In this document: in pieces, positions 4,465 to 16,321 of the stretch
Numbering within the stretch: position 1 is the first letter of the stretch
Layout of the letters: each line of letters begins with the position of its first letter
DNA from: Alteromonas sp. IB21
GTDB taxonomy: Bacteria; Pseudomonadota; Gammaproteobacteria; Enterobacterales; Alteromonadaceae
Direction: 5' to 3'
Assembly: GCF_016405965.1 (NCBI RefSeq)
Contig: NZ_JAEFCD010000005.1
Span: 1-64,000 of the forward strand
Length of the DNA: 64,000 nucleotides
Program-made: the position numbers and the translations under genes
The notes under the pieces: model-generated
Databases searched by the model: none
What the model saw: the letters and a program-made list of their open reading frames with translations, nothing else
Told to the model about the DNA's origin: nothing

Positions 4465-5304
4465 TTGCATAATGAAAGCTATCATTTGGCATTTTTATTA
4501 CTTGCCGGCGGTCGAAGTGCGCGTTACGGGGGGAATAAACTTTTATCCGAGCACCCGGAATCAAATCTACCTCTCGTCGAGCACAGTTTACGCGTGTTTT
4601 TAAATGCGAAAACGGCACATACAGGTACGCAATTCACCAATAGCGAAGCCGCGGTGTCTAAGGTAAGTCATAAAGGTTTATTCGACAAAACGAATCAGGT
4701 TACCCTTGTTGCGGGCAAATGGCATGAAAGCTTAGAAATACAGTTAAGCCACTGTCCTGTTAGCCTTGTGCACAATACACAATGGGAAGAGGGTATTGCG
4801 TCTAGTATTCGTTTTGGATTGCAGTATATTTTATCAGTATCCTGTTCAGTTTCTGAGCTAATAGCGCCAAATTCAAATGGCAATAATCATAGGGGCTTAC
4901 AAGGTGCAGAAATTGCGAGCCGTACCTACTCGCCGAGTCACTTGCTCATTTCTTTGGCAGACTTACCGTGTTTAACAGAGCAGGATTTAGCAAACTTGAT
5001 CCAAGCGTCGCAAAGTAACCCTGATAAAATAGTGTGCTGTGAATGGAAAGCTAAAAACAGTGGAAACGAAGCTCTCAATGGTTCAGAGGCACGGCTAACG
5101 GTACCGGCCATATTTCCTAAGGCTATATTCAGCGAGCTTCTTACGCTTGAGGGAGATACAGGCGCTAAACCCATTATCAAAAAATACATGAAAAAGGGGA
5201 GAGTAGTTGCGATACCTACGCCCAATGCGCAGTTTGATATAGACGTACCACAAGACTGGGTCAATTTAGCAATGCCAGAAAATCGACCCACTCACGAAGA
5301 CTAA
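4465..5304 (+). CDS. MobA/MocA-like nucleotidyltransferase (NTP_transf_3)
   Basis: The 279-residue protein starts with the nucleotide-binding signature LLLAGGRSARYGGNKLL (11-27), typical of MobA/MocA molybdenum-cofactor guanylyl/cytidylyl transferases and related sugar-phosphate nucleotidyltransferases. A metal-binding Asp occurs in ISLADLPCL, and FDIDVPQDW near the C-terminus matches the family's terminal DIDTPED-like motif. MocA proteins are about 190-200 residues, so roughly 80 extra residues are present, mainly around 45-80 and 125-155. The start is a TTG with GGTGAG upstream; no ATG is available before the signature. Together with nearby moeA this suggests a role in molybdenum cofactor nucleotide modification, by inference. 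Confidence 0.75.
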   Translation: MHNESYHLAFLLLAGGRSARYGGNKLLSEHPESNLPLVEHSLRVFLNAKTAHTGTQFTNSEAAVSKVSHKGLFDKTNQVTLVAGKWHESLEIQLSHCPVSLVHNTQWEEGIASSIRFGLQYILSVSCSVSELIAPNSNGNNHRGLQGAEIASRTYSPSHLLISLADLPCLTEQDLANLIQASQSNPDKIVCCEWKAKNSGNEALNGSEARLTVPAIFPKAIFSELLTLEGDTGAKPIIKKYMKKGRVVAIPTPNAQFDIDVPQDWVNLAMPENRPTHED

Positions 5305-5331: not shown

Positions 5332-6705
5332 CTACAGTGCCCTTAATCTTGCCGCATTACTAGGACGCTGAATATAAAGCAATCGAGCGCCTAACATAAC
5401 GGCAGCTGCGCTTAGCCCCACTATAAAACCAATCCAAAAACCTGCAGCAGCCATAGGCTCTGCCGTTATCCAGTTCGTTCTTCCCAAAATTACACCGGTT
5501 GGCAAACCAATGAGCCAGTAAGAGATAAACGTGATAATAAACATGGCCGTGGTATCTTTATAGCCTCGCAGCGCGTTAGCTGAAATAACCTGAACCGCAT
5601 CTGACAGCTGGAATAGGGCTGCATAAATAAGCAGTGCATTGGCTAGCGTGTAAACTGCTTCATCGCTGGTGTATAAGCCTATGATGAAACCTTTCGCTAA
5701 AAGAGTAAAACTAGCGGTACATGCGGATGTACAAAAGCCAATAAAAATAGCTGCACGGGCTGCGATCTGAGCCTGACGTTGATTGTTTTGGCCTATTCGA
5801 TACCCTATGCGGATAGCCGCTGCCATGCCCATACTCATAGGAAACATGAACATGAGTGCTGAGAAGTTCAGCGCAACTTGGTGTGCAGCCACCGTTGTTG
5901 CCCCAAAAGGTGCAAGTAATAATGCCACCACTGAAAATAGTGTCACTTCAAATAAAATGGTCATAGCGATAGGCAATCCCATTTTAAATGTTCGACTTAT
6001 GGTCACCATATTGGGTTTGTACATTTGCCCAAACAAGTTGTATTTCTGTAGCGCTGGAGCGAAGCGAACGTAAACTATGGTAGCGATAAGCATGGTGTAA
6101 ATGACAATGGCTGTCGCTATACCGCAACCTGCCCCCCCCATGGCGGGGATCGGTCCTACGCCATAAATGAAAAGGTAATTACCCACTACGTTTGCCATAA
6201 GTCCGATAACGGTAATGATCATGGTTGGCTTTGTTTTACCTAATCCTTCGCAATAGTTCCTAAGCCATTGATAAAGGGCAAACCCAGGCATGGCAAACAG
6301 TACATAAAGCACATAATCTACGGTAATGCTAAATAGCGCTGGCGCCATTGGGAATAGTGCAACAATGCTCTCGGTAAAGGGTATTAACCCTGCGATCACT
6401 AATCCTACGAAGAAAACCAAGTAGCCAGCCTGTAGACTGGCATCAGCAATGCCGTTTAAGTTTTTATTGCCTTGTAACCGAGAGATGATGGGAGGTAGCG
6501 CTAAAGCGATACCCTGAATAAAGCATAGCAATGGCACGGTAATGCTAAAACCGAGCGCTACGGCTGCCATATCGGTAGCGCTGTAGCGTCCAGCCATAAT
6601 AGTATCGCTAACACCCATCAGCATTTGCGTTATTTGCGCCACCAGCAATGGCCACGCGAGTTTTAAAATGTCTCGACCTTCTAGAAGAAAGCGTTTTTTA
6701 ATCAC
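5332..6705 (-). CDS. MATE family multidrug/Na+ antiporter (NorM-like)
   Basis: The 457-residue inner-membrane protein has about twelve hydrophobic segments in two homologous halves, beginning LAWPLLVAQITQMLMGVSDTIMAGR, the hallmark first helix of MATE transporters. MATE proteins export cationic drugs or metabolites in exchange for Na+ or H+. The gene is convergent with the MobA/MocA-like gene (27 bases between stops) and lies upstream of moeA on the same strand with 125 bases between. The substrate cannot be deduced; association with the molybdenum cofactor genes is probably incidental. Confidence 0.92.
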   Translation of the reverse strand: MIKKRFLLEGRDILKLAWPLLVAQITQMLMGVSDTIMAGRYSATDMAAVALGFSITVPLLCFIQGIALALPPIISRLQGNKNLNGIADASLQAGYLVFFVGLVIAGLIPFTESIVALFPMAPALFSITVDYVLYVLFAMPGFALYQWLRNYCEGLGKTKPTMIITVIGLMANVVGNYLFIYGVGPIPAMGGAGCGIATAIVIYTMLIATIVYVRFAPALQKYNLFGQMYKPNMVTISRTFKMGLPIAMTILFEVTLFSVVALLLAPFGATTVAAHQVALNFSALMFMFPMSMGMAAAIRIGYRIGQNNQRQAQIAARAAIFIGFCTSACTASFTLLAKGFIIGLYTSDEAVYTLANALLIYAALFQLSDAVQVISANALRGYKDTTAMFIITFISYWLIGLPTGVILGRTNWITAEPMAAAGFWIGFIVGLSAAAVMLGARLLYIQRPSNAARLRAL

Positions 6706-6830: not shown

Positions 6831-8051
6831 CTAAAAGTGAAGAGGCATAACTTCAACTTTGTCGCCTACCTGTAATTCACTGACATCCTCGGGCACAACC
6901 ATTAAGCAATTTGCTGACGTAATAGAGGTCATCACACCCGAACTTTGGGATTTGAAGGGGGTTACTTCCCAATCGCCACACTCATTTTTAACCATGGTTG
7001 CGCGCTGAAAATCTCGGCGTCCAGCACGACGATTAAGTGTTGTTGTGATAGTAGCGCTCACAGAAAATGGCGTGAAGGTGTCTAATTGTCCCTGCATTTT
7101 CTTGATGATTGGCACCACAAGCAATTTGGCAGTTACAAATGACGACACTGGATTACCAGGAAGGCCACAAAATAACGTGTTATTTATGTTGCCTAAAGCG
7201 AAAGGTTTACCTGGCTTTACCGCTATTTTCCAAAAGTCGATTGCGCCTAATTCTGCAATAATATCTTTCACATAGTCTGCGTCGCCAACGGATACGCCTC
7301 CGCTACTTACCATTACATCAACCCGTGAGCTTGCATCGGTAAACAGTTTACGTAAAGAGAGTTCGTTGTCTTCCACAATACCAAAATCTATCAGTTCTAC
7401 ATTTTCGGTTTTTAAAATGCTACTCACGCCAACGCGGTTAGACTCATAAATTTGAGTATCTGCACGTGCTGTGCCTGGTGCAGCTAATTCTGACCCTGTA
7501 GCTACAACGCCAACGCGAAGCTTTCGTATAACGTCTACCGTATTTTTACCCTGTGAAGATAGCAACATTAGGTGCTCTGCATGTAAGCGCGTTCCCTTTT
7601 TTACGAGCGTGTCGCCGCGCGCTATATCATTTGCTTTTTTACGAATATTTTCGTGCGCGACAGGGCGTTTATTCACAACCACTGCGCCCTCAAATTCCGA
7701 GGTGTTTTCTATCATTACAACCGCGTTAGCATTTTCAGGAATGGGCGCTCCCGTCATAATTTTAAATGCTTTCCCGGCTTGAAGGGGAGTATCTGCAAGC
7801 ATACCTGCGGTAATGACACCCTGTACTTCTAACTTTGATTCAGCCGTTTTTTCCAGTTCTGCGGTATTGACGGCATAGCCGTCCATCGCTGAATTATCCC
7901 ATGGTGGTACGTCCACATTTGCAACAACATCTTGTGCCAAAATGCGATTATGGGCATCAAAAATACTCACTTGTTCAACGTCGGTTATTGCTGTTGCAGC
8001 GCTCAACGCTTTTGTGAGGGCTTCTTCTAGCGAAAGCCATTTAGATGACAT
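6831..8051 (-). CDS. moeA: Molybdopterin molybdenumtransferase MoeA
   Basis: The 406-residue enzyme inserts molybdate into adenylated molybdopterin to form molybdenum cofactor in the cytoplasm. MPPWDNSAMDGYAV-like sequence near the N-terminus (VDVPPWDNSAMDGYA), the SGGVSVGDADYV motif near residue 257 and GLPGNPVSS near 285 are the diagnostic MoeA motifs. Length is that of the bacterial family (about 400-410). No other moa/moe gene is adjacent, but a MobA/MocA-like nucleotidyltransferase lies 1.5 kb away. The identification is secure. Confidence 0.95.
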   Translation of the reverse strand: MSSKWLSLEEALTKALSAATAITDVEQVSIFDAHNRILAQDVVANVDVPPWDNSAMDGYAVNTAELEKTAESKLEVQGVITAGMLADTPLQAGKAFKIMTGAPIPENANAVVMIENTSEFEGAVVVNKRPVAHENIRKKANDIARGDTLVKKGTRLHAEHLMLLSSQGKNTVDVIRKLRVGVVATGSELAAPGTARADTQIYESNRVGVSSILKTENVELIDFGIVEDNELSLRKLFTDASSRVDVMVSSGGVSVGDADYVKDIIAELGAIDFWKIAVKPGKPFALGNINNTLFCGLPGNPVSSFVTAKLLVVPIIKKMQGQLDTFTPFSVSATITTTLNRRAGRRDFQRATMVKNECGDWEVTPFKSQSSGVMTSITSANCLMVVPEDVSELQVGDKVEVMPLHF

Positions 8052-8091
8052 ACCAAAACTCCATGAAATTATTTAACAGGCGGATATTACA

Positions 8092-8125
8092 GAAAAAAAA
8101 CACGTTATACCAAAAGTTAACGTGT
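8092..8125 (-). terminator. Rho-independent terminator downstream of gph
   Basis: The stem ACACGTTA/TAACGTGT (8100-8107 with 8118-8125) is followed on the minus strand by a run of T residues (8093-8100). It ends the transcript of gph and possibly of the whole glucosylglycerate operon, and separates it from moeA. Confidence 0.8.
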
Positions 8126-8202
8126 GAAATTAAGTATAGTCAGCTGGCTAATGGCGACGTTTGCTGCACAATTTTTGGAAAAGTTGTGAAACGTTCAGTG
8201 TG

Positions 8203-8883
8203 TTAATGACTCAGGCTTAAAATGTCCAATATGCTGCCAACGTCGTCCATTACCCAGTCAGGGTTTAAACTTGAAATGTCTTGCCCGTAATTATAGCCAT
8301 ATGTAAGGCCAATACTTTTCATATTGGCCGCTCTCGCGGCAAGAATATCGTTTTTAGAATCGCCTACCATGACGCATTGAGAGGATGACACGCTAAATTC
8401 TTTACATACATGTAAAAGAGGTAAAGGCGATGGCTTTTTCTCTTCAAGTGAATCGCCGCCGATACAAAGATCGAATAAATGATTGAGATTGAAACCTTCG
8501 AGAATAGCAGGAATAAACGCTTTTGGCTTGTTAGTTACAAGAGCCAAGTTAAATCCGCTTTGCTTAAGCGTGTGCAAGGTCTCACTTACATTAGGGTAGA
8601 GTGCTGAAGCGTGACATACATACTTTGAATAGTGACGAAGGAAGACTTCGAGCGCTTTGTTTATGTGGGTTTCTGATATAGCGTTATCAAGCTCATGACT
8701 GCCAGATAGTCCTCGATGCACAAGCGTTCTTGCGCCATTGCCCACCCAGCCTCTAATCTCAGGTAAGGAGAATTGAGCTTCGCCTAATTCAGCAAGCGTC
8801 AGGTTTAACGATGTCGCCAAATCCGGTGCCGAATCTACCAATGTGCCGTCAAGGTCAAATAAAAATGTATTAATATCGCGCAT
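8203..8883 (-). CDS. gph: Phosphoglycolate phosphatase-like HAD hydrolase
   Basis: The 226-residue protein belongs to HAD subfamily IA. Motif I FLFDLDGTLVDS has the nucleophile Asp10 and acid/base Asp12; motif II is LVTNKP near 120; motif III/IV is the K in KPSPLPLL and GDSKNDILAA. Gph removes phosphate from 2-phosphoglycolate formed by DNA repair or oxygenase side reactions. The gene lies 79 bases downstream of the phosphorylase on the same strand and before a shared terminator, so it may be the last gene of that operon. Other substrates are possible because Gph-like HADs are promiscuous. Confidence 0.85.
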   Translation of the reverse strand: MRDINTFLFDLDGTLVDSAPDLATSLNLTLAELGEAQFSLPEIRGWVGNGARTLVHRGLSGSHELDNAISETHINKALEVFLRHYSKYVCHASALYPNVSETLHTLKQSGFNLALVTNKPKAFIPAILEGFNLNHLFDLCIGGDSLEEKKPSPLPLLHVCKEFSVSSSQCVMVGDSKNDILAARAANMKSIGLTYGYNYGQDISSLNPDWVMDDVGSILDILSLSH

Positions 8884-8962
8884 TACAAATGTGCATTTTG
8901 AAATGAGAGGTTAATCATAACACCGCAGTATCCTTACCGCGGTAAAAAGTTAATCAGTTGAT

Positions 8963-10717
8963 TTATTCAAAATCTTGGTTACTGATCCAAAGTACTTGGT
9001 ATGGCTTCATTTGTAAAAAGCCACTCGAAAGCGCTATCTCATCGCGAGTGATAAGGTCTATCCAATTATCAGTACCTATTAAATTAATGTCGGATAAAAG
9101 AATTGTCTGCTCTTCGTCACTGATATTGCTGATGCAGAAAATGCTTTGTTTCCGGTCTAAGCTCTGACGCCAGTAGCCAAAGATTTGGTTACCTAACTGA
9201 AGCGTAAACTGGGTTGCATTTGGGTGAAATGCTGGTTGCGCTTTACGGATGCGGATCAATTGAGAAATACGGGTCAAGACCTTGTGATGTTGAGAGAACG
9301 GAGAATCTAACAAGGCCTCTAGCTCGTTAAAGTCCCAGCGTTTTCTATTAATAGAACGATTTTGACCGGTATTCGCAACTTTTTCATAATCATTAGAGGT
9401 ACCCAATAAACTATGTATATAGATGCCAGGAATACCCTCCATACCTAACATAATGGCATGCGCGCAAATAAAACGATCGACTTGATATTTGTCAGGGCCT
9501 TTGATTGTGCCTTGAAGCGCATCAAACAGGGTGATGTTGATCTCATAGGGCTTTTGCTGGCCGTGCTCAGAAGCGCGCCACGAAACTTTTCCACCAAAAT
9601 GCTGCATAGCGTGAACTAAATCAGATATTTCCTCATCGCTTAGCAGACCCTCGGCGGGTCGAAGGCCAATCCCATCGTGTGAAGCTATAAAGTTGAAATA
9701 TGCGGTTCCGTTTTGGGCGGGCGGCATACTCATCATCCAGTTTTTAAGATAGGTGCAGTCTCCGCTCACCAGCGTGTTGACCAGCAGTGGCGGAAGAGAA
9801 AAATTATAGATAGCATGGGCTTCGTTTGCATTACCGAAATAGGTGAGGTTTTCCCTGTTAGGAATATTAGTTTCAGTAATGATTATGATTGACGGGTCAA
9901 CATGCTCTATCAACGTTCTTATCAGCCGAATGACTTCGTGAGTTTGGGACAGGTTAATGCAATTGGTACCGACAATTTTCCATAAAAATGCCACAGCATC
10001 TAAGCGAAATATTTTGGCGCCTTTATCAATGTATAGCTTAATAATGTCGATAAATGCTAAAAGCACCTTTGGGTTTCTAAAATCAAAATCTACCTGATCG
10101 TGACTAAAGGTACACCAAACGTGTTTAGTCCCGTCAGCAGTTTCCGTCTCGCGCAGTAGGGGAGAAACTCGTGGTCTTGTCACCATCGACAAGTCCTCTG
10201 TAGGGTCCGCTGTAAAGAAAAAGTCAGACCCAGGTCCTTCAGCTTTTATAAAATTATCGAACCAAGCGCTGCGCGCCGAACAGTGATTTATTACCAAGTC
10301 GGTCATAAGACCATAGTCTTTAGCTATCGCTTCTATATCGTCCCATGAACCTAGTGCTTCGTTTACTGTCGAATAATCGATAACCGAGAACCCATCGTCC
10401 GAACTATAGGGAAAGAAAGGAAGGATATGCACGTTATTTACAGTGTTCTTACAATAGCGATGCAAAAACTTGTTTAAGGTAACAAGAGGTCGTTCGCCTT
10501 CCTCTACGATGCTATCACCATAGGTAATCATAACTATGTCATCTTCATCCCAATAATTATGATGGGATTGAGGGGAAGCAATGTCGGTTTCTTGTTGAAT
10601 ACCTATCGTATTTAATAACTGAGTGGCGAGCGTCTCATATGAGACGTCTAGCGCTACATCGGCATAAATGCTTTCTAAATGGTGCTTTACTTTGTCATGG
10701 AGGTGCTCCCACGCCAT
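8963..10717 (-). CDS. GH13_18 glycoside phosphorylase, probable glucosylglycerate phosphorylase
   Basis: The 584-residue protein is a sucrose-phosphorylase-type GH13 enzyme. The (beta/alpha)8 barrel carries the expected catalytic residues: nucleophile Asp240 in [11 protein letters not shown], acid/base Glu282 in IIITETNIP and transition-state stabiliser Asp348 in [11 protein letters not shown]. Classical sucrose phosphorylases are nearer 490-510 residues; the longer form fits the glucosylglycerate/glucosylglycerol branch. Genomic context (GT81 synthase, phosphatase and glycerate kinase in the same operon) favours phosphorolysis of 2-O-alpha-glucosyl-D-glycerate to glucose-1-phosphate and glycerate. 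It starts 5 bases after the synthase stop. Family assignment is solid; substrate is inferred, with sucrose or glucosylglycerol as alternatives. Confidence 0.85.
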
Positions 10718-10722
10718 ATTAC

Positions 10723-11946
10723 TTACTCCATAAATTCTGCAGTGTCAGCTTCAACCGCTTCTAATAATCGTTCTAAAATATCGGGTACCGCACTTGTCAC
10801 GCGATTCCAACTTGGAATAAACGGCGTTTCCATCGGATTTTCTAGGAAGTTTTGACCCGCTTTCATGATATTACTGGCAAACATTTCAACCGCTTTTTCT
10901 TCGCTGTGAATGTCTAAGCTCAAGCCGTTCATAACCGCATCGTTGTGATAGGTCTCAATGAAGTCTAGGGCGATACGGAAATATGTCGCTTTGATAGAGC
11001 GGAACATTTCGTTACTGAACGTGTAGCCTTGGGTAGCCAATTTGCGGAATATTGCTTTGGTAATGTCGATAGACATTTTAGATAAACCGCCTTGGTCGTT
11101 ATTGAGCGATAAATCTTGATGCTTGTGATCGTAAATATCGCAAATATCGGCTTGGCACAGTCGATTGTGTGAATAATTGCGGTGCATCTCTGACAGAACG
11201 CCAATTTCCAAACCCCAGTCGCTAGGAATACGAATATCGTTCAATACATCCCTGCGAAACGAGAACTCACCGGCTAATGGATAGCGAAAACTATCCATGA
11301 ACTCTAAATATTCATTGTCACCCATAATGCGTTTTAATGCGCGCAGTAATGGGGTCACTAGAAGGCGAGATACACGGCCATTAATTTTTCCATTAGCTAC
11401 GCGGGCATAATAACCCTTACAAAACTCATAGTTAAACATTGGGTTTGCGACAGGGTAGATGAGCTTTGCCAGAAGGTCTTTGTTGTAGGTAACAATATCG
11501 CAGTCGTGCAATGCTACAGATTCGGCGCAATTAGACGCTAGGACATAGCCCATGCAATACCACACATTACGACCTTTACCTAACTCCTTCGGCGCTAAGC
11601 CTTGTGCCTGAAGCTCCTCGTCTAATGCTTTCAGGCGAGGTCCATCATTCCAAAGAATTCTGTGGTGCTGAGGCAATTTGCCAAAAAACTTTAGGGCGTG
11701 CTTGTATTGGTCTTGGTTTGCACGGTCAAGGCCGATAACAATTTCTGACAAATAGGGAACGTTTGTTAACTCATTAACGATATGGGGAAGTGCATCACCT
11801 TCTAACTCAGAAAAAAGTGAAGGAAGAATAAGTGCCATTGGGCGCTTTTGAGAAAACTGTAGCAGTTCGGCTTCTAGCTCTTCGGTAGGACGACGAGCCA
11901 AGTTATGTAACGTAGTAACAACACCATTTTGATAAAAATCAGCCAT
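10723..11946 (-). CDS. gpgS: Glucosyl-3-phosphoglycerate synthase-like glycosyltransferase (GT81)
   Basis: The 407-residue cytoplasmic enzyme resembles the GT81 glucosyl-3-phosphoglycerate synthases, which transfer glucose from an NDP-glucose donor to 3-phospho-D-glycerate. Seen in the sequence: an N-terminal nucleotide-binding region ([10 protein letters not shown], then [10 protein letters not shown] near 68-77), GKGRN at 133-137, and the metal-binding DxD as DCD at 148-150 followed by IVTYN. A conserved [10 protein letters not shown] region lies near 235. The phosphatase gene directly upstream (12 bases apart) would complete glucosylglycerate formation. A mannosyl donor preference cannot be excluded from sequence reading alone. 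Confidence 0.85.
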
Positions 11947-11958
11947 GTGTCCTCCTGA

Positions 11959-12768
11959 TCATAGGGATATTAATTGAGTAAGCATTTCGTTCCAGCCTTC
12001 AGGGCCGGTTAGGGTGCTGGTATAGACCTCTTCTTTTTTTATTTCAGGCGGAGGATTTACCGGTGATAAAATGCGAATTGGGACGTGCGCTGCTTCGAGC
12101 ATTGCTACGTCATTTTTACCGTCGCCAAGGGCGACGGTTTTAACTTTAGTGATATGTTGTTTTTGGTATTCATTGGCTAGCCACTTAAGTGCTTGGCCTT
12201 TATCACAGTTACCAGAAACATGAATGAAACGCCCGCCTTCTAGCGGAAACGCACCTCGGTCTTTGACAACCTTTAAGAAACGCTGTTTTTCTTCTTCAGT
12301 GCCAAGCCATAAGACAGGTTCGCCAAACTGACGCTTTGCAGCGAGCGATGCCGATAGTTCGTCTAACCCTGTGCAATCTTGGATTTCTTGGACCGACATT
12401 TTTGAAAACTGTTTGTACTTGCCATCAAATTCACTGCCCATTTTCTCCAGTAATTTTATCCAGTAGTTTTTATTAGAGATAAACGCCTTGCACCAATAGC
12501 CATCGATCCAAATAGTGCCCGTAGGTTTTTGCTTGAAGAAACCGTGCGGAATAAAAACAGCGGCGCCATTCTCAATAATGAATGGTCCATCCAGACCAAT
12601 TTTTTCACGTAATGGTTGTAGCTCTGCAAATGTTTTACTGGTAGTAGGGATAACGGGGATGTGCTTTTCTTCTAATGCCGTTAAAGCCGGTTTCGCCGCC
12701 TCAAAAGAGTAGGTATGGTGGTCTAACAGCGTGCCGTCCATATCGGTGAAAACAAGCGTCTTCGTCAT
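11959..12768 (-). CDS. Mannosyl/glucosyl-3-phosphoglycerate phosphatase (HAD, Cof-like)
   Basis: The 269-residue HAD phosphatase belongs to the MPGP/YedP group. Motif I FTDMDGTLLD holds nucleophile Asp9 and Asp11; motif II TTSKTFAEL is near 43; the C-terminal GDGKNDVAML motif is near 218. FIIENGAAVFIP is a characteristic cap-proximal segment. It would dephosphorylate glucosyl-3-phosphoglycerate to glucosylglycerate, the compatible solute. Its ATG overlaps the stop of the upstream kinase (ATGA), and gpgS follows after 12 bases, so the three are translationally linked. Substrate assignment rests on family and operon. Confidence 0.87.
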   Translation of the reverse strand: MTKTLVFTDMDGTLLDHHTYSFEAAKPALTALEEKHIPVIPTTSKTFAELQPLREKIGLDGPFIIENGAAVFIPHGFFKQKPTGTIWIDGYWCKAFISNKNYWIKLLEKMGSEFDGKYKQFSKMSVQEIQDCTGLDELSASLAAKRQFGEPVLWLGTEEEKQRFLKVVKDRGAFPLEGGRFIHVSGNCDKGQALKWLANEYQKQHITKVKTVALGDGKNDVAMLEAAHVPIRILSPVNPPPEIKKEEVYTSTLTGPEGWNEMLTQLISL

Positions 12769-13637
12769 TGGTTTACGTCCTGTTTAGTTATTGTTCTTGT
12801 GTCATCTAGATAGAACACCGTATCGCACTTTTCAGGCAAGTGCTCCAACGTGTGCTCCGTAATGCGTTGGTAATGTTGCACAAAGTTTGCCACTTCTTCA
12901 TCAGACATAATGCCGGCTCTATCTTTCAAGGCTTTACTTGCAAGTTTATGCTCCTGCTCAAGCCGCCATTGATACACGCAATCGAAGCTAGGTGCCTTTA
13001 GCATAATACGATAGTCGATTTTCTCGAATAACGTTTGGTAATCACCGGCAAGTTCTGTGTTTACAAACGAACGCCAGATTGCCAAAGGATCTTCAACCTC
13101 TTCTAAGTTATTGATTGGAGGTTTAATTTCAGCGGGCGACTGTGGCGTGGCGCCCACGCACCATCCCTCAAGTATGATGAAATCAGGTGATGATTCTATG
13201 ACAGGCCACTGTTCTTGAGGGAAGGGGTTATCCGTTGCTTTATTAAAGCGAGGGAGTAGCGTGCGCGCGCCTTTATCTAGACTACGAAATGTATTTAGCG
13301 CTAAGGTAACATCATGTGTTCCCGGTACGCCTCGGGTCTTTAAAAGCGGATGGACTTTTATGGCGAGCGCGTTTCGTTGGCTTTGGTCAAAATAGAAATC
13401 GTCGATAGACAGGGAAACTACCCGTTTCCCATGAACAGACGAGAGGTAAGCGTCAATAAAACTGGTTAGCGTAGATTTCCCAGAACCTTGGCTACCGTTA
13501 ATGCCAACGATAAGCGGGGTGCTTGCCCCTTTTTGGTGCTCCACTAGCCGTTCACATAATGGTTTGAACCATTGTTGTGCAGTTTCTGCATAACTACTTG
13601 GCAATTGATGCGTAGTTAAAAAGCCATGTATATCCAT
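12765..13637 (-). CDS. D-glycerate 3-kinase-like P-loop kinase
   Basis: The 290-residue protein is a P-loop kinase with Walker A GINGSQGSGKST (45-56), a SLSIDDFYF Walker-B-like strand near 97 and the LEGWCVG segment near 165 that marks the plant GLYK/yeast Tda10/YggC group (related to uridine and pantothenate kinases). Plant GLYK makes 3-phosphoglycerate from D-glycerate. As first gene of an operon with synthase, phosphatase and phosphorylase of glucosylglycerate, it could recapture the glycerate released by phosphorolysis. The kinase fold is certain; the glycerate substrate is inferred. Confidence 0.83.
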   Translation of the reverse strand: MDIHGFLTTHQLPSSYAETAQQWFKPLCERLVEHQKGASTPLIVGINGSQGSGKSTLTSFIDAYLSSVHGKRVVSLSIDDFYFDQSQRNALAIKVHPLLKTRGVPGTHDVTLALNTFRSLDKGARTLLPRFNKATDNPFPQEQWPVIESSPDFIILEGWCVGATPQSPAEIKPPINNLEEVEDPLAIWRSFVNTELAGDYQTLFEKIDYRIMLKAPSFDCVYQWRLEQEHKLASKALKDRAGIMSDEEVANFVQHYQRITEHTLEHLPEKCDTVFYLDDTRTITKQDVNQ

Positions 13638-13730
13638 ATTGTTACCTCAATCAATGCAGAATTCACACTTCAATAGCAAGTGAGGTAACAACAATTGTGC
13701 CAATAGCGTTAATAAAATGGATACTAGTAA

Positions 13731-14729
13731 CTACTTCTTATTTGCAACAATAACGGCTCGTTGTGGTGCAGGGTAACCCTCTATGGTGCGAGTAATATCT
13801 TCCGGATCGAGAAAATCTTTCAAAGATTGGGTATCCATCCAGGGTGTTGAGCGCTGTTCGTCAAGCGTCGTATGATTAACATCTACTACACGGATGTTTT
13901 CAAATCCCAATCGGCTTAGCCATACCGAAAGGGCGTCCGTACTTGGCAAGAACCATACATTCCTCATTTGAGCGTAGCGTTCCCCGGCCATCAGCACCGT
14001 ATTCTCATCACCATCTACGACAAGCGTTTCAAGAACAAGCTCTCCGCCTTTTCTCAACTGGTCTTTTAATTGTTGTAAAAAAGCCATTGGGTCTTTTCGA
14101 TGGTACAACACGCCCATAGAAAAAACCGTGTCGAAGGCGTTAAGTGGTTGCATGTCCTCAATGCCCATGGGAAGAAAATGAATATTTTCACACGGTGCAT
14201 CGGTGTTACGAATAAAGTGTTTTATTGCGTGAAATTGAATTAGAAACAGTTGTGTGGGATCGACACCAATAACGCTGCTTGCGCCCTCACCGAGCATACG
14301 CCACATGTGATAACCACTACCACAGCCAACATCCAATACATTTCTATTTTTAAGCGAAGTAATGTGTGGTGATACACGATCCCATTTCCAATCAGAACGC
14401 CATTCTGTATCGATATGTATATCATGGAGATGAAAAGGGCCTTTGCGCCACGGCATAAATTGCTTCAAAAGACCTTCTATCTGTTTCTTCGTGTATTCAT
14501 CAACATCGCTATGACTGCCAATGGAAACTGACGATGTAAGGTCAATGTGGCTAGGTGATGTCTTTGGGAGTTTGTTTAGTAACCGACACCACTTGTCAAA
14601 CTCTCCGTGTTTAGCCGTTCGCTGCCATGAATCCATTAACGAAGGTAGCGTTTGTAGCCAGTGTGAAAGCGGGCTGTCTATTAACGACTTATAACACTCG
14701 TTAAACCAAATCTGTTCAAGTTTAGTCAT
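13731..14729 (-). CDS. cmoB: tRNA U34 carboxymethyltransferase CmoB
   Basis: The 332-residue enzyme transfers the carboxymethyl group of carboxy-S-adenosylmethionine to 5-hydroxyuridine at tRNA position 34, giving cmo5U. The Rossmann methyltransferase core is visible: [14 protein letters not shown] near 130-140 and [12 protein letters not shown] near 210. The N-terminal 110 residues with W-rich helices are typical of CmoB. cmoA, which makes the cofactor, lies 51 bases upstream on the same strand, as expected for a two-gene operon. The length is close to the E. coli protein (323). Confidence 0.95.
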
Positions 14730-14780
14730 GGTTATCTCTGTATATTTATTTAAGCTTTGCGTGAGCGCTATCGGCAGGGT

Positions 14781-15512
14781 TTATGCTTTCATGGCAACCA
14801 TCGATGTGAAGTTATAGCACTTGTACCACATGACAACATCGGAAAAGCCGACCTTTTTCAAACGGGTTTCATGTTCATTAAACGTATCGGTGAGCATAAC
14901 TTTTTCAAGTGCCGCTCGCTTTTGGCTTACCTCTAATTCACTGTAACCGTTATCTCGCTTGAACTGGTGATGCAAGTCTACGAGCAACTCATTGCCGGCA
15001 AGAGTAGGGTGGCGAATTTTCTCAGACAACACAAGCATACCTCCGGGATTCAAGCCGTCGTAAATGCTTTGAAGCAGTGCTTGTCGGTCAGCGGGTGGGA
15101 TAAACTGTAGGGTGAAGTTCATAACAACCAGTGAAGCATTTTGAATCTCTACATGTTGGGCAAAACCATGTTGAATAGAAATAGGGTTGGGAAGTGTAAA
15201 TGTCTGCACAACACGTTTACAACGCTCAACCATCGCTTCTGACGCATCGACACCGATTATTTTGCAGGACGCAGCGGTTACGGCTCTTGATACCGATAAG
15301 CTTGCCGCACCAAGGCTACATCCGAGGTCATAAACCGTCGAATTAGGCGTTACCGCAACCTTAGCCAGTTCTCCGATGGTGTGGACGATAGTTTCATAGC
15401 CGGGCACCGAACGCTGGATCATGTCGGGAAATACATCAACGACAGACTCGTCAAATTTAAAGTCGTCTACTTTATTGAGTGCCTTCGCGTATATATTGTC
15501 GTGCTTCTTCAC
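14781..15512 (-). CDS. cmoA: Carboxy-S-adenosyl-L-methionine synthase CmoA
   Basis: The 243-residue protein converts SAM and prephenate into carboxy-SAM for CmoB. The N-terminal DNIYA...FKFDESVVDVFPDMIQRSVPGY segment is the CmoA signature, followed by the cofactor loop VYDLGCSLGAASLS (about 59-72) and FTLQFIPP near 130. It is the promoter-proximal gene of the cmoA-cmoB operon and is divergent from a LuxR-type regulator. The identification is secure. Confidence 0.95.
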   Translation of the reverse strand: MKKHDNIYAKALNKVDDFKFDESVVDVFPDMIQRSVPGYETIVHTIGELAKVAVTPNSTVYDLGCSLGAASLSVSRAVTAASCKIIGVDASEAMVERCKRVVQTFTLPNPISIQHGFAQHVEIQNASLVVMNFTLQFIPPADRQALLQSIYDGLNPGGMLVLSEKIRHPTLAGNELLVDLHHQFKRDNGYSELEVSQKRAALEKVMLTDTFNEHETRLKKVGFSDVVMWYKCYNFTSMVAMKA

Positions 15513-15685
15513 TGATAGTCTTCACTTGCCTAATTTGGGGCGCAATTTTACCGTCTGACGCGCAAATGCCAATGAAAAACACTAATTTTGTTATAAATTG
15601 CGTGTTTTTTAAGATTAGGGCTTTTCGTTACTATTCTAAAGTATTAATCTATGAACATAATGAAAATAAGGAAGTAGTAACGCTG

Positions 15686-16321
15686 ATGACGAGAATTCTA
15701 GTAGCAGATGATCATCCATTGTTTCGCGAGGCATTGAGTGGCGCATTGGAACCTTACTTTGAAAATGCACAAATAATTCAAGCCGGAAGCTTAGATGATG
15801 CAGTGTCAAAGCTTAAAGAGTTCGATGGCATAGAATTGGTGCTTCTAGACCTAAATATGCCTGGTGGGGAATATTTTAACGGTCTTATTACGCTTAGAGA
15901 GCAATATCCATCTATTCCAGTCGGGGTTATCTCAGGAAGCGACACCGTTGAGGTAGTTGCACAAGTAATGAGTTTGGGTGCTCAAGGTTTCATTCCGAAA
16001 GTGTCTGAAACTCGCGAAATTGCTCAAGCCATCGTTGATATGATCGGCGGTAAAAAATGGCTTCCACAAGGCATGGAAGAGCAGTTAGAAAAGGTTGATG
16101 ACGAGCTTAAACTGCTGCTTCAGCGCTTCCGCGAGCTAACACCTAAGCAAATCCAGGTGCTTTCTTACTTACGAGCAGGGCTTATGAATAAGCAAATTGC
16201 TCATGAAATGAATGTTACAGAAGCAACGATTAAAGCGCACATTAGTGCAATTTTACGCAAGTTAGAAATCAACACGCGTACACAGGCCGTGCTGCTTATG
16301 GACAAACTTCAGCTAAGCTAA
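15686..16321 (+). CDS. LuxR/NarL-type two-component response regulator
   Basis: The 211-residue protein has an N-terminal receiver domain with acidic Asp8/Asp9 (LVADDHP), phosphoacceptor Asp55 in VLLDLNMPGG and Lys105 in GFIPK, then a C-terminal LuxR helix-turn-helix (about 143-205) with ELTPKQIQVL, NKQIAHEM and ATIKAHISAIL. I start it at ATG 15686 because the receiver domain begins there; the open frame extends upstream into cmoA but the extra residues are not conserved-looking. AAGGAAG lies 11 bases upstream. No histidine kinase is adjacent, so it is an orphan regulator. Output genes are unknown. A strong terminator follows. Confidence 0.92.
   Translation: MTRILVADDHPLFREALSGALEPYFENAQIIQAGSLDDAVSKLKEFDGIELVLLDLNMPGGEYFNGLITLREQYPSIPVGVISGSDTVEVVAQVMSLGAQGFIPKVSETREIAQAIVDMIGGKKWLPQGMEEQLEKVDDELKLLLQRFRELTPKQIQVLSYLRAGLMNKQIAHEMNVTEATIKAHISAILRKLEINTRTQAVLLMDKLQLS

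Follow-up and report, generated by a model that had tools for sequence, protein, structure and literature searches.

The 64,000-nucleotide stretch of the Alteromonas sp. IB21 genome analyzed here (the window; the host is probably marine) carries on its minus strand, at 8963-13637, a tight operon for making and recycling glucosylglycerate (GGA). Taken jointly, our results make it probable that this operon is read from a sigma-54 promoter of its own, that such promoters answer to NtrC in several other lineages of Proteobacteria, and that a hairpin in the leader of the first gene may add to the control. What is already known comprises the gene set, its enzymes and the concept of a cluster that both makes and recycles (extracts of PMC7178133 and PMC11631117); the control region and its distribution are what is new here. 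Among the matches listed from the open-licence PMC literature, none named sigma-54, NtrC or another regulator for the GGA genes or for GGA accumulation.

In the order of transcription, the list of open reading frames of the window gives a predicted glycerate kinase, a phosphatase, the synthase GpgS and the phosphorylase GGaP. An earlier note on this DNA had described four tightly linked genes, and all four are open reading frames where it placed them; the kinase and phosphatase genes overlap by 4 nt and the two gaps that follow measure 12 nt and 5 nt. GGaP was found in all 58 genomes of the same genus that were searched, at identities of at least 78%, and the four genes stand together in 55 of them. 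The kinase gene is absent at two loci (L084 and L086), where the other three genes are kept and a search of the genomes concerned (G026 and G053) found no kinase of this type elsewhere; at L073 the contig ends inside gpgS, and the kinase of that genome is present on another contig. The operon is core to the genus and, given 55/58 genomes, the clustering of its genes is no chance arrangement. It comes behind cmoB, on the same strand, in 54 of the 55 four-gene loci of the genus, and at the remaining one (L071) the contig ends first.

The synthesis-and-recycling cycle put forward in the earlier note fits the sequences of all four enzymes. That is, GpgS would join nucleoside-diphosphate (NDP)-glucose to 3-phosphoglycerate and the phosphatase, of the MPGP type, would strip the phosphate to leave GGA; GGaP would split GGA by phosphorolysis into glucose-1-phosphate and D-glycerate, the latter being returned to 3-phosphoglycerate by the kinase. 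With a sigma-54 promoter of its own, the operon would have synthesis and recycling co-induced by an enhancer-binding protein. In several further proteobacterial lineages this protein is most likely NtrC, and GGA would thereby be linked to a shortage of nitrogen. A role for nitrogen limitation had also been suggested earlier, and this suggestion gains support because of the sigma-54-type element, which was absent from the earlier note.

A sigma-54-type element and its spread

Promoters of the sigma-54 type, which often serve bacteria in reacting to a lack of nitrogen, have a standard geometry, with consensus boxes at -24 and -12. When the 93 bp that separate cmoB from the kinase gene were compared with those of genus-mates, a block of the form TTGGCAY-N5-TTGTW-like was found in the window (TTGGCACAATTGTTGTT) and in 55/55 kinase-bearing loci, with the GG at -24 and the -24/-12 spacing constant in all 56 sequences. 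The element lies 63-67 nt from the kinase ATG (76 nt in two sequences) and anywhere from 23 to 1173 nt from cmoB (54 loci with cmoB), and because the first distance is near-constant while the second varies, we assign it to the kinase operon. The DNA before E. coli pspA, a gene that is sigma-54-dependent, reads TTGGCACGCAAATTGTA, with the same -24 box and the same TTGT at -12. A pattern derived from the element, TTGGCAYANNNGTTGTW, has the element as its sole match in the window and none in 100 shuffles, the pattern having been taken from the element itself; single matches count for little, and the case for a promoter rests on conservation. The genome encodes RpoN, and a simple motif search of the loci, which could miss some, found no enhancer-binding-protein gene beside the operon.

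Similar elements occur outside the genus. For 129 of 130 non-genus loci (L095 is without GpgS), the 370 bp preceding the gpgS operon's first gene were scored against the pattern TTGGCACRNNNNTTGYW, which has 13 scored positions, and we counted scores of 11 or more as positive. Positive GGA upstreams numbered 55/129 vs. 24/894 for control upstreams of other genes in the same loci, and 30 dinucleotide shuffles of the 129 upstreams gave a mean of 2.4 positives and a maximum of 8. With a stricter regular expression, the count was 14/129; random windows gave 0.8 on average and at most 4. Because some species occur in both sets of non-genus loci (e.g., G163 and L184), we also weighted by clusters of GpgS: at 80% identity (47 clusters), the mean positive fraction was 0.307 vs. 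0.051 for controls and 13 clusters were positive by majority, and at 95% identity (102 clusters) the fraction was 0.392 vs. 0.037. Further, 14 of 30 GGaP genes that lie on the strand opposite to gpgS have an element with a score of at least 11 in their own upstream; the 16 that score lower comprise eight of nine Thalassospira loci, the seven loci L137-L143, and L162.

A dyad search without a given motif, covering the 220 bp above the element in the 55 positive loci, ranked GCACC-N5-GGTGC and TGCAC-N7-GTGCA first, each in 4/55 loci compared to at most 2 for any dyad in five shuffles, and we take both dyads to be the NtrC site. Counting as NtrC-type any site of the TGCAC-N7-GTGCA type with at least 9 of 10 bases in ~620 bp upstream, we found such sites in 21/55 element-positive GGA upstreams, in 6/28 with an element score of 10 and in 1/46 with a score below 10; the corresponding counts for control upstreams were 6/24 (element-positive) and 21/870 (element-negative). 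Of these 21 sites, fifteen are located 91-151 bp above the element, with single sites at 20 bp and at 188 bp. The simplest reading would be that in several lineages GGA synthesis is driven by NtrC, the genus of the window keeping the sigma-54 core with another activator or a degenerate site.

The genome of the window encodes an NtrC of its own (758 bits vs. a cut-off of 558.6). At its locus L259, NtrC-type sites with 8 and 9 of 10 bases stand at 2084-2121, before a gene read as glnA, and a perfect site stands at 4640-4656, at a gene read as ntrB that adjoins ntrC; these sites suggest that the NtrC motif is valid in the genus as well. A generic search of the genus upstreams for dyads and 8-mers gave words that we tentatively ascribe to the coding sequence of cmoB.

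The leader inverted repeat and other readings of the control region

The leader of the kinase gene holds an inverted repeat, TGAGGTAACAAT being complementary to GTTGTTACCTCA with one G-U pair (Table 1). When 48 distinct leaders are considered, the highest-scoring stem that closes on the ribosome-binding region has a mean score of 8.9 vs. 5.85 in shuffles, and this statistic stands out for the kinase alone (z = 21.8), the values for cmoA, cmoB, the three other operon genes and moeA ranging from -1.5 to 2.1. In the aligned leaders, 72.3% of cells are paired (30-47% after sliding the partner), and changes on both sides affect 64 cells, compared to 40.1 in shuffles. In 32 of the 33 leaders whose stem scores 8 or more, the 5' arm does not extend beyond the predicted transcription start. 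An mRNA started at the sigma-54 promoter would lack this arm, so that only read-through mRNA would fold; in transcripts running through from cmoAB the hairpin may mask the ribosome-binding site of the kinase, and the sigma-54-started mRNA would be translated. We offer insulation against read-through as a hypothesis only; strong stems are also commoner where cmoB is near (31/37 vs. 5/17, kinship ignored).

Alternatively, and with close to an even chance, the inverted repeat might act as an RNA that senses temperature or a ligand, might serve as an operator for a protein, or might have no function as RNA. It spans the ribosome-binding site of the kinase, and, the transcription start being predicted, the 5' arm might be transcribed after all. 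Several observations weigh against a conserved insulating hairpin. The two covariation measures that kinship distorts least do not exceed shuffles (double-changed pairs were as high in 77/500 and further pair types in 75/500), the structure tested having been derived from the same sequences, and RNAalifold predicted no common leader structure. The leader of the window taken alone is modestly stable (z -1.81), the stem score is below 8 in 18/54 genus loci, and the hairpin of some clades pairs in a different register. The alternative fits less well with the placement of the 5' arm over the -12 box and away from the predicted transcript, with a stem statistic confined to the kinase, with the excess of strong stems close to cmoB, and with the Rfam search, which gave zero matches in 8000-16000 of the window. 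Within the loop of the leader there is, in addition, a small dyad, GTGY...GCAY (A4 columns 38-53, window ~13668-13654), with 66.7% of its cells paired.

It is unlikely, in our view, that the operon is as described and the upstream element is merely an ordinary binding site or part of a sigma-70 promoter, with no sigma-54 or nitrogen control. This alternative draws on the GT of the -12 box, on the lack of an NtrC-type site in the genus and on the genome-wide count of the loose pattern; these and further observations weigh against sigma-54 and NtrC control in general. The -12 box is GT in 54/56 sequences and GA in 2/56, compared to GC in the consensus. Genome-wide, the loose pattern shows no enrichment (three matches vs. 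five for a reversed control), the consensus pattern with GC has four matches vs. one for the reversed control, single matches being uninformative, and the consensus with one mismatch has four matches in the window vs. 5.2 expected. The two loci without a kinase, L084 and L086, show no clear element (best score 9/13). Outside the genus, 46/129 gpgS upstreams score below 10, including 8/9 of those from Thalassospira, in counts that are not independent, the two locus sets overlapping for some species; and 4 of the 21 NtrC-type sites lie below the element. Within the genus, an NtrC-type site (9/10 bases) occurs in 1/56 upstreams of 400 bp vs. 0.6 in shuffles, with none beyond chance up to 600 bp upstream, and the operon of the window is without one although the same genome has such sites at the genes read as glnA and ntrB. 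Against an ordinary site speak the -24/-12 spacing, which is fixed in 56/56, and the occurrence, in independent lineages, of near-consensus elements ahead of these same genes, most of the accompanying NtrC-type sites lying at the distance expected. We favor a sigma-54 promoter.

Enzyme assignments and the gene set across the phylum

GGaP shares 40% identity across 575 columns with E. coli YcjM, which is annotated in RefSeq as glucosylglycerate phosphorylase (EC 2.4.1.352). The catalytic Asp/Glu/Asp pointed out in the earlier note corresponds to D240, E282 and D348, which, together with N284 and E392, are kept in 166/166 aligned relatives. The enzyme has TETN at 281-284 (counts of this motif were taken from alignment columns) and QQKPYE in loop A, the Glu being E392. 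According to extracts of Franceus and Desmet (PMC7178133), a (T/S)ETN motif and a loop-A Glu distinguish glucosylglycerate phosphorylase from sucrose phosphorylase, and mutation of Asn275 or Glu383 leads to a loss of activity in the Meiothermus silvanus enzyme; N284 and E392 have the same spacing as these two residues. With this published specificity signature present, the proposal of a GH13_18 phosphorylase acting on GGA appears sound as far as sequence can tell. The features of sucrose phosphorylase are lacking: loop A has no N(L/V)D(I/L/V)YQ, and TIGR03852 gives 218 bits vs. a cut-off of 334.4. The sucrose-phosphorylase motif, as NVDLYQ, is found instead in a second GH13_18 protein of the same genome (G000:C66:26271-27689, L006), whose closest PDB entry is 7znp, presumably the Alteromonas mediterranea enzyme. 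A further GH13 match, G000:C13:31617-33215, is a putative amylosucrase-like protein. GGaP frames with one internal TAA occur in G059 (L089), G302 and G437.

For GpgS, no Pfam match was obtained at E 0.001, and the protein stays under the NCBIfam equivalog cut-offs of NF040724 (GpgS_Meth; 378/700 bits) and NF010496 (64/262 bits); the shortfall for the former may concern the sub-family alone, that model being for methanogens by name. The assignment as a GT81 synthase with a DCD motif, also made in the earlier note, is borne out by the motif itself, located at D148-C149-D150 (D148-C-D150 reaches 98% conservation or more across 186 relatives), and by an AlphaFold model (built from 17 sequences; pLDDT 82.9) whose fold is nearest to solved GpgS. 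That is, of the top 30 PDB folds, 27 are titled glucosyl-3-phosphoglycerate synthase and three 'Mycobacterial protein', which we take to be the same enzyme. Two points limit this assignment: the TM-scores are moderate (0.45-0.49 by query length), and a Rubrobacter mannosyl-3-phosphoglycerate synthase follows close behind the glucosyl enzymes, at rank 31 (query TM-score 0.47). Because the mannosyl enzyme scores similarly, the fold backs GT81-type chemistry and not the choice of sugar. GalU is encoded in the genome for the supply of uridine-diphosphate glucose.

The kinase reached no NCBIfam cut-off, and was identified by phmmer as a relative of solved D-glycerate 3-kinases (7xpc, E 3.7e-23; 6ckg, E 3.3e-22), with its P-loop residues among the positions that are at least 98% conserved in 103 relatives, which agrees with the glycerate kinase proposed earlier. 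The MPGP-type phosphatase, likewise proposed there, passes two curated models, the MPG-phosphatase model NF001218 (423.2 bits vs. a cut-off of 362) and TIGR01486 (222.8 bits vs. 164.75). Kinase and phosphatase are fused in one protein of ~580-630 aa at seven loci (L088, L089, L152, L181, L187, L196 and L224), whose hosts include Methylophaga (three) and a metagenome-assembled genome of Oleiphilaceae. The automatic labelling of most phosphatases as fusions arose because fused proteins had gone into the model; a clean model leaves these seven.

Across the phylum, GpgS was found in 50/398 genomes and a strong phosphorylase match in 52/398: 44 genomes have both, six GpgS only and eight the phosphorylase only, the phosphorylase counts being lower bounds because G394, counted among those with GpgS only, holds one by profile (L164). 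The four functions occur together in 16/50 of one set of non-genus loci and in 31/80 of the other, judged within the stretches at hand. The association of the genes is strong and of the kind already described. The eight genomes with a GGaP-like gene and no GpgS match (G257, G290, G340, G366, G386, G431, G437 and G455) are candidate users, via uptake, of glucosylglycerate made by others.

These eight genomes, and the ABC transporter with which ycjM sits in E. coli, could be taken to mean that the operon of the window mainly scavenges external glucosylglycerate, the synthase being minor. We regard this as very unlikely, since GpgS and the phosphatase share the operon, among the seven genes compared GpgS changes most slowly (median nonsynonymous divergence, dN, of 0.057 vs. 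0.129-0.375 for the others), and no transporter family match was found among the seven proteins scanned between 8203 and 15512. The ratio of dN to synonymous divergence was obtainable for only 1-13 pairs per gene because synonymous sites are mostly saturated. Very unlikely as well is that the solute is mannosylglycerate, for which speak the phosphatase models, named for mannosyl-3-phosphoglycerate, and the Rubrobacter enzyme, with which the fold leaves the sugar unsettled, but against which stand the 30 better-ranked folds listed above and the glucosylglycerate signature of the linked phosphorylase.

Table 1. Features of the operon, its control region and its flanks in the window
Feature	Position	Strand	Basis or remark
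glyK-type D-glycerate 3-kinase, 290 aa	12765..13637	-	operon's first gene; phmmer to PDB kinases
Glucosyl-3-phosphoglycerate phosphatase, MPGP family, 269 aa	11959..12768	-	NF001218, TIGR01486
GT81-like glucosyl-3-phosphoglycerate synthase GpgS, 407 aa	10723..11946	-	model fold and DCD motif
GH13_18 glucosylglycerate phosphorylase GGaP, 584 aa	8963..10717	-	D240, E282, D348, N284, E392
Sigma-54-type -24/-12 promoter element	13687..13703	-	conserved core, window and 55/55 genus loci
Predicted transcription start	13676	-	~13 nt 3' of the -12 G, from standard sigma-54 geometry
Inverted repeat, 5' arm	13681..13692	-	overlaps the -12 box, upstream of the predicted start
Inverted repeat, 3' arm	13638..13649	-	contains the kinase ribosome-binding site
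cmoB	13731..14729	-	NF011650, 495.6 bits vs. cut-off 209; upstream neighbour, outside the pathway, possible read-through source
Terminator-like hairpin after GGaP	8921..8944	-	weak: 8 such sites found vs. shuffle mean 7.6

Known systems, significance and neighbouring features

The GGaP clusters of Meiothermus silvanus, Spirochaeta thermophila and E. coli, as presented in extracts of PMC7178133, have the same GH13_18 (T/S)ETN motif and loop-A Glu and often lie, as in the window, beside genes for glycerate kinase, GpgS or a phosphatase; the window differs from them in having one tight four-gene operon, core to its genus, with a conserved sigma-54-type element of which those extracts make no mention. 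In the GGA operon of Prochlorococcus NATL2A (extracts of PMC11631117), genes for synthesis and recycling are likewise co-located. That operon adjoins a transporter gene, whereas no adjacent transporter was found at the operon of the window, and its transcripts for synthesis and recycling shift oppositely in dark-tolerant cells, whereas the genes of the window would be co-transcribed. As for a possible horizontal transfer involving marine cyanobacteria, a search of genome contigs placed no cyanobacterial locus among the best 80 of 587 stretches encoding a relative.

The glnA-type promoters of NtrC and sigma-54, and the pspA promoter of E. coli, are well-known -24/-12 systems. The glnA type shares with the GGA operons a -24/-12-type arrangement and, outside the genus, NtrC-type sites mostly within the 91-151 bp upstream; in contrast to both the glnA-type and pspA promoters, the element of the window precedes an osmolyte operon, and its genus is without a recognisable NtrC site. 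For the putative leader hairpin, the parallel is the IS10 transposase, in whose read-through mRNA fold-back inhibits translation. We propose that the ribosome-binding site is likewise hidden only in transcripts started upstream, with the difference that what the hairpin of the window would shield is a metabolic operon located after one for tRNA modification.

GGA accumulates under salt and nitrogen limitation in several bacteria (extracts of PMC11009771, PMC9062515 and PMC5924519). A promoter of the sigma-54 type, joined in several lineages by NtrC-type enhancers, would provide a direct, testable cause for this nitrogen-linked accumulation; as GGA is a nitrogen-free anionic osmolyte, a salt-protecting sugar acid, the promoter would help explain its build-up in nitrogen scarcity. 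A broader version, which we advance tentatively and to which we give somewhat less than an even chance, is that GGA synthesis is part of the sigma-54/NtrC nitrogen regulon in much of the marine Gammaproteobacteria, which would supply the regulatory reason for the replacement of glutamate by this nitrogen-free anion when nitrogen runs short, and that the promoter of the genus has lost its NtrC site and come under another activator, with the hairpin making the operon insensitive to read-through, so that translation is confined to sigma-54 mRNA. It has also been proposed that Alteromonas feeds GGA to Prochlorococcus, and an operon core to Alteromonas would be the supply side of this cross-feeding (extracts of PMC11631117). 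Placing make and drain under one promoter raises the question of how a futile cycle is avoided when both arms are induced together.

As for the flanks, cmoB and cmoA lie upstream of the operon on the same strand. The counts of sigma-70 promoters and terminators around the operon are not above those in shuffles. Downstream, beyond the terminator-like hairpin, there is a phosphoglycolate phosphatase gene, which we exclude from the operon because it is adjacent in just 18/58 genus loci. Farther downstream, outside the range scanned for transporters, the open reading frame at 5332-6705 resembles, by eye, a MATE-type exporter. Just past cmoA, on the opposite (plus) strand, the gene at 15479-16321 has a weak receiver-domain match (C55:15695-16024) and by eye resembles a LuxR-type response regulator.

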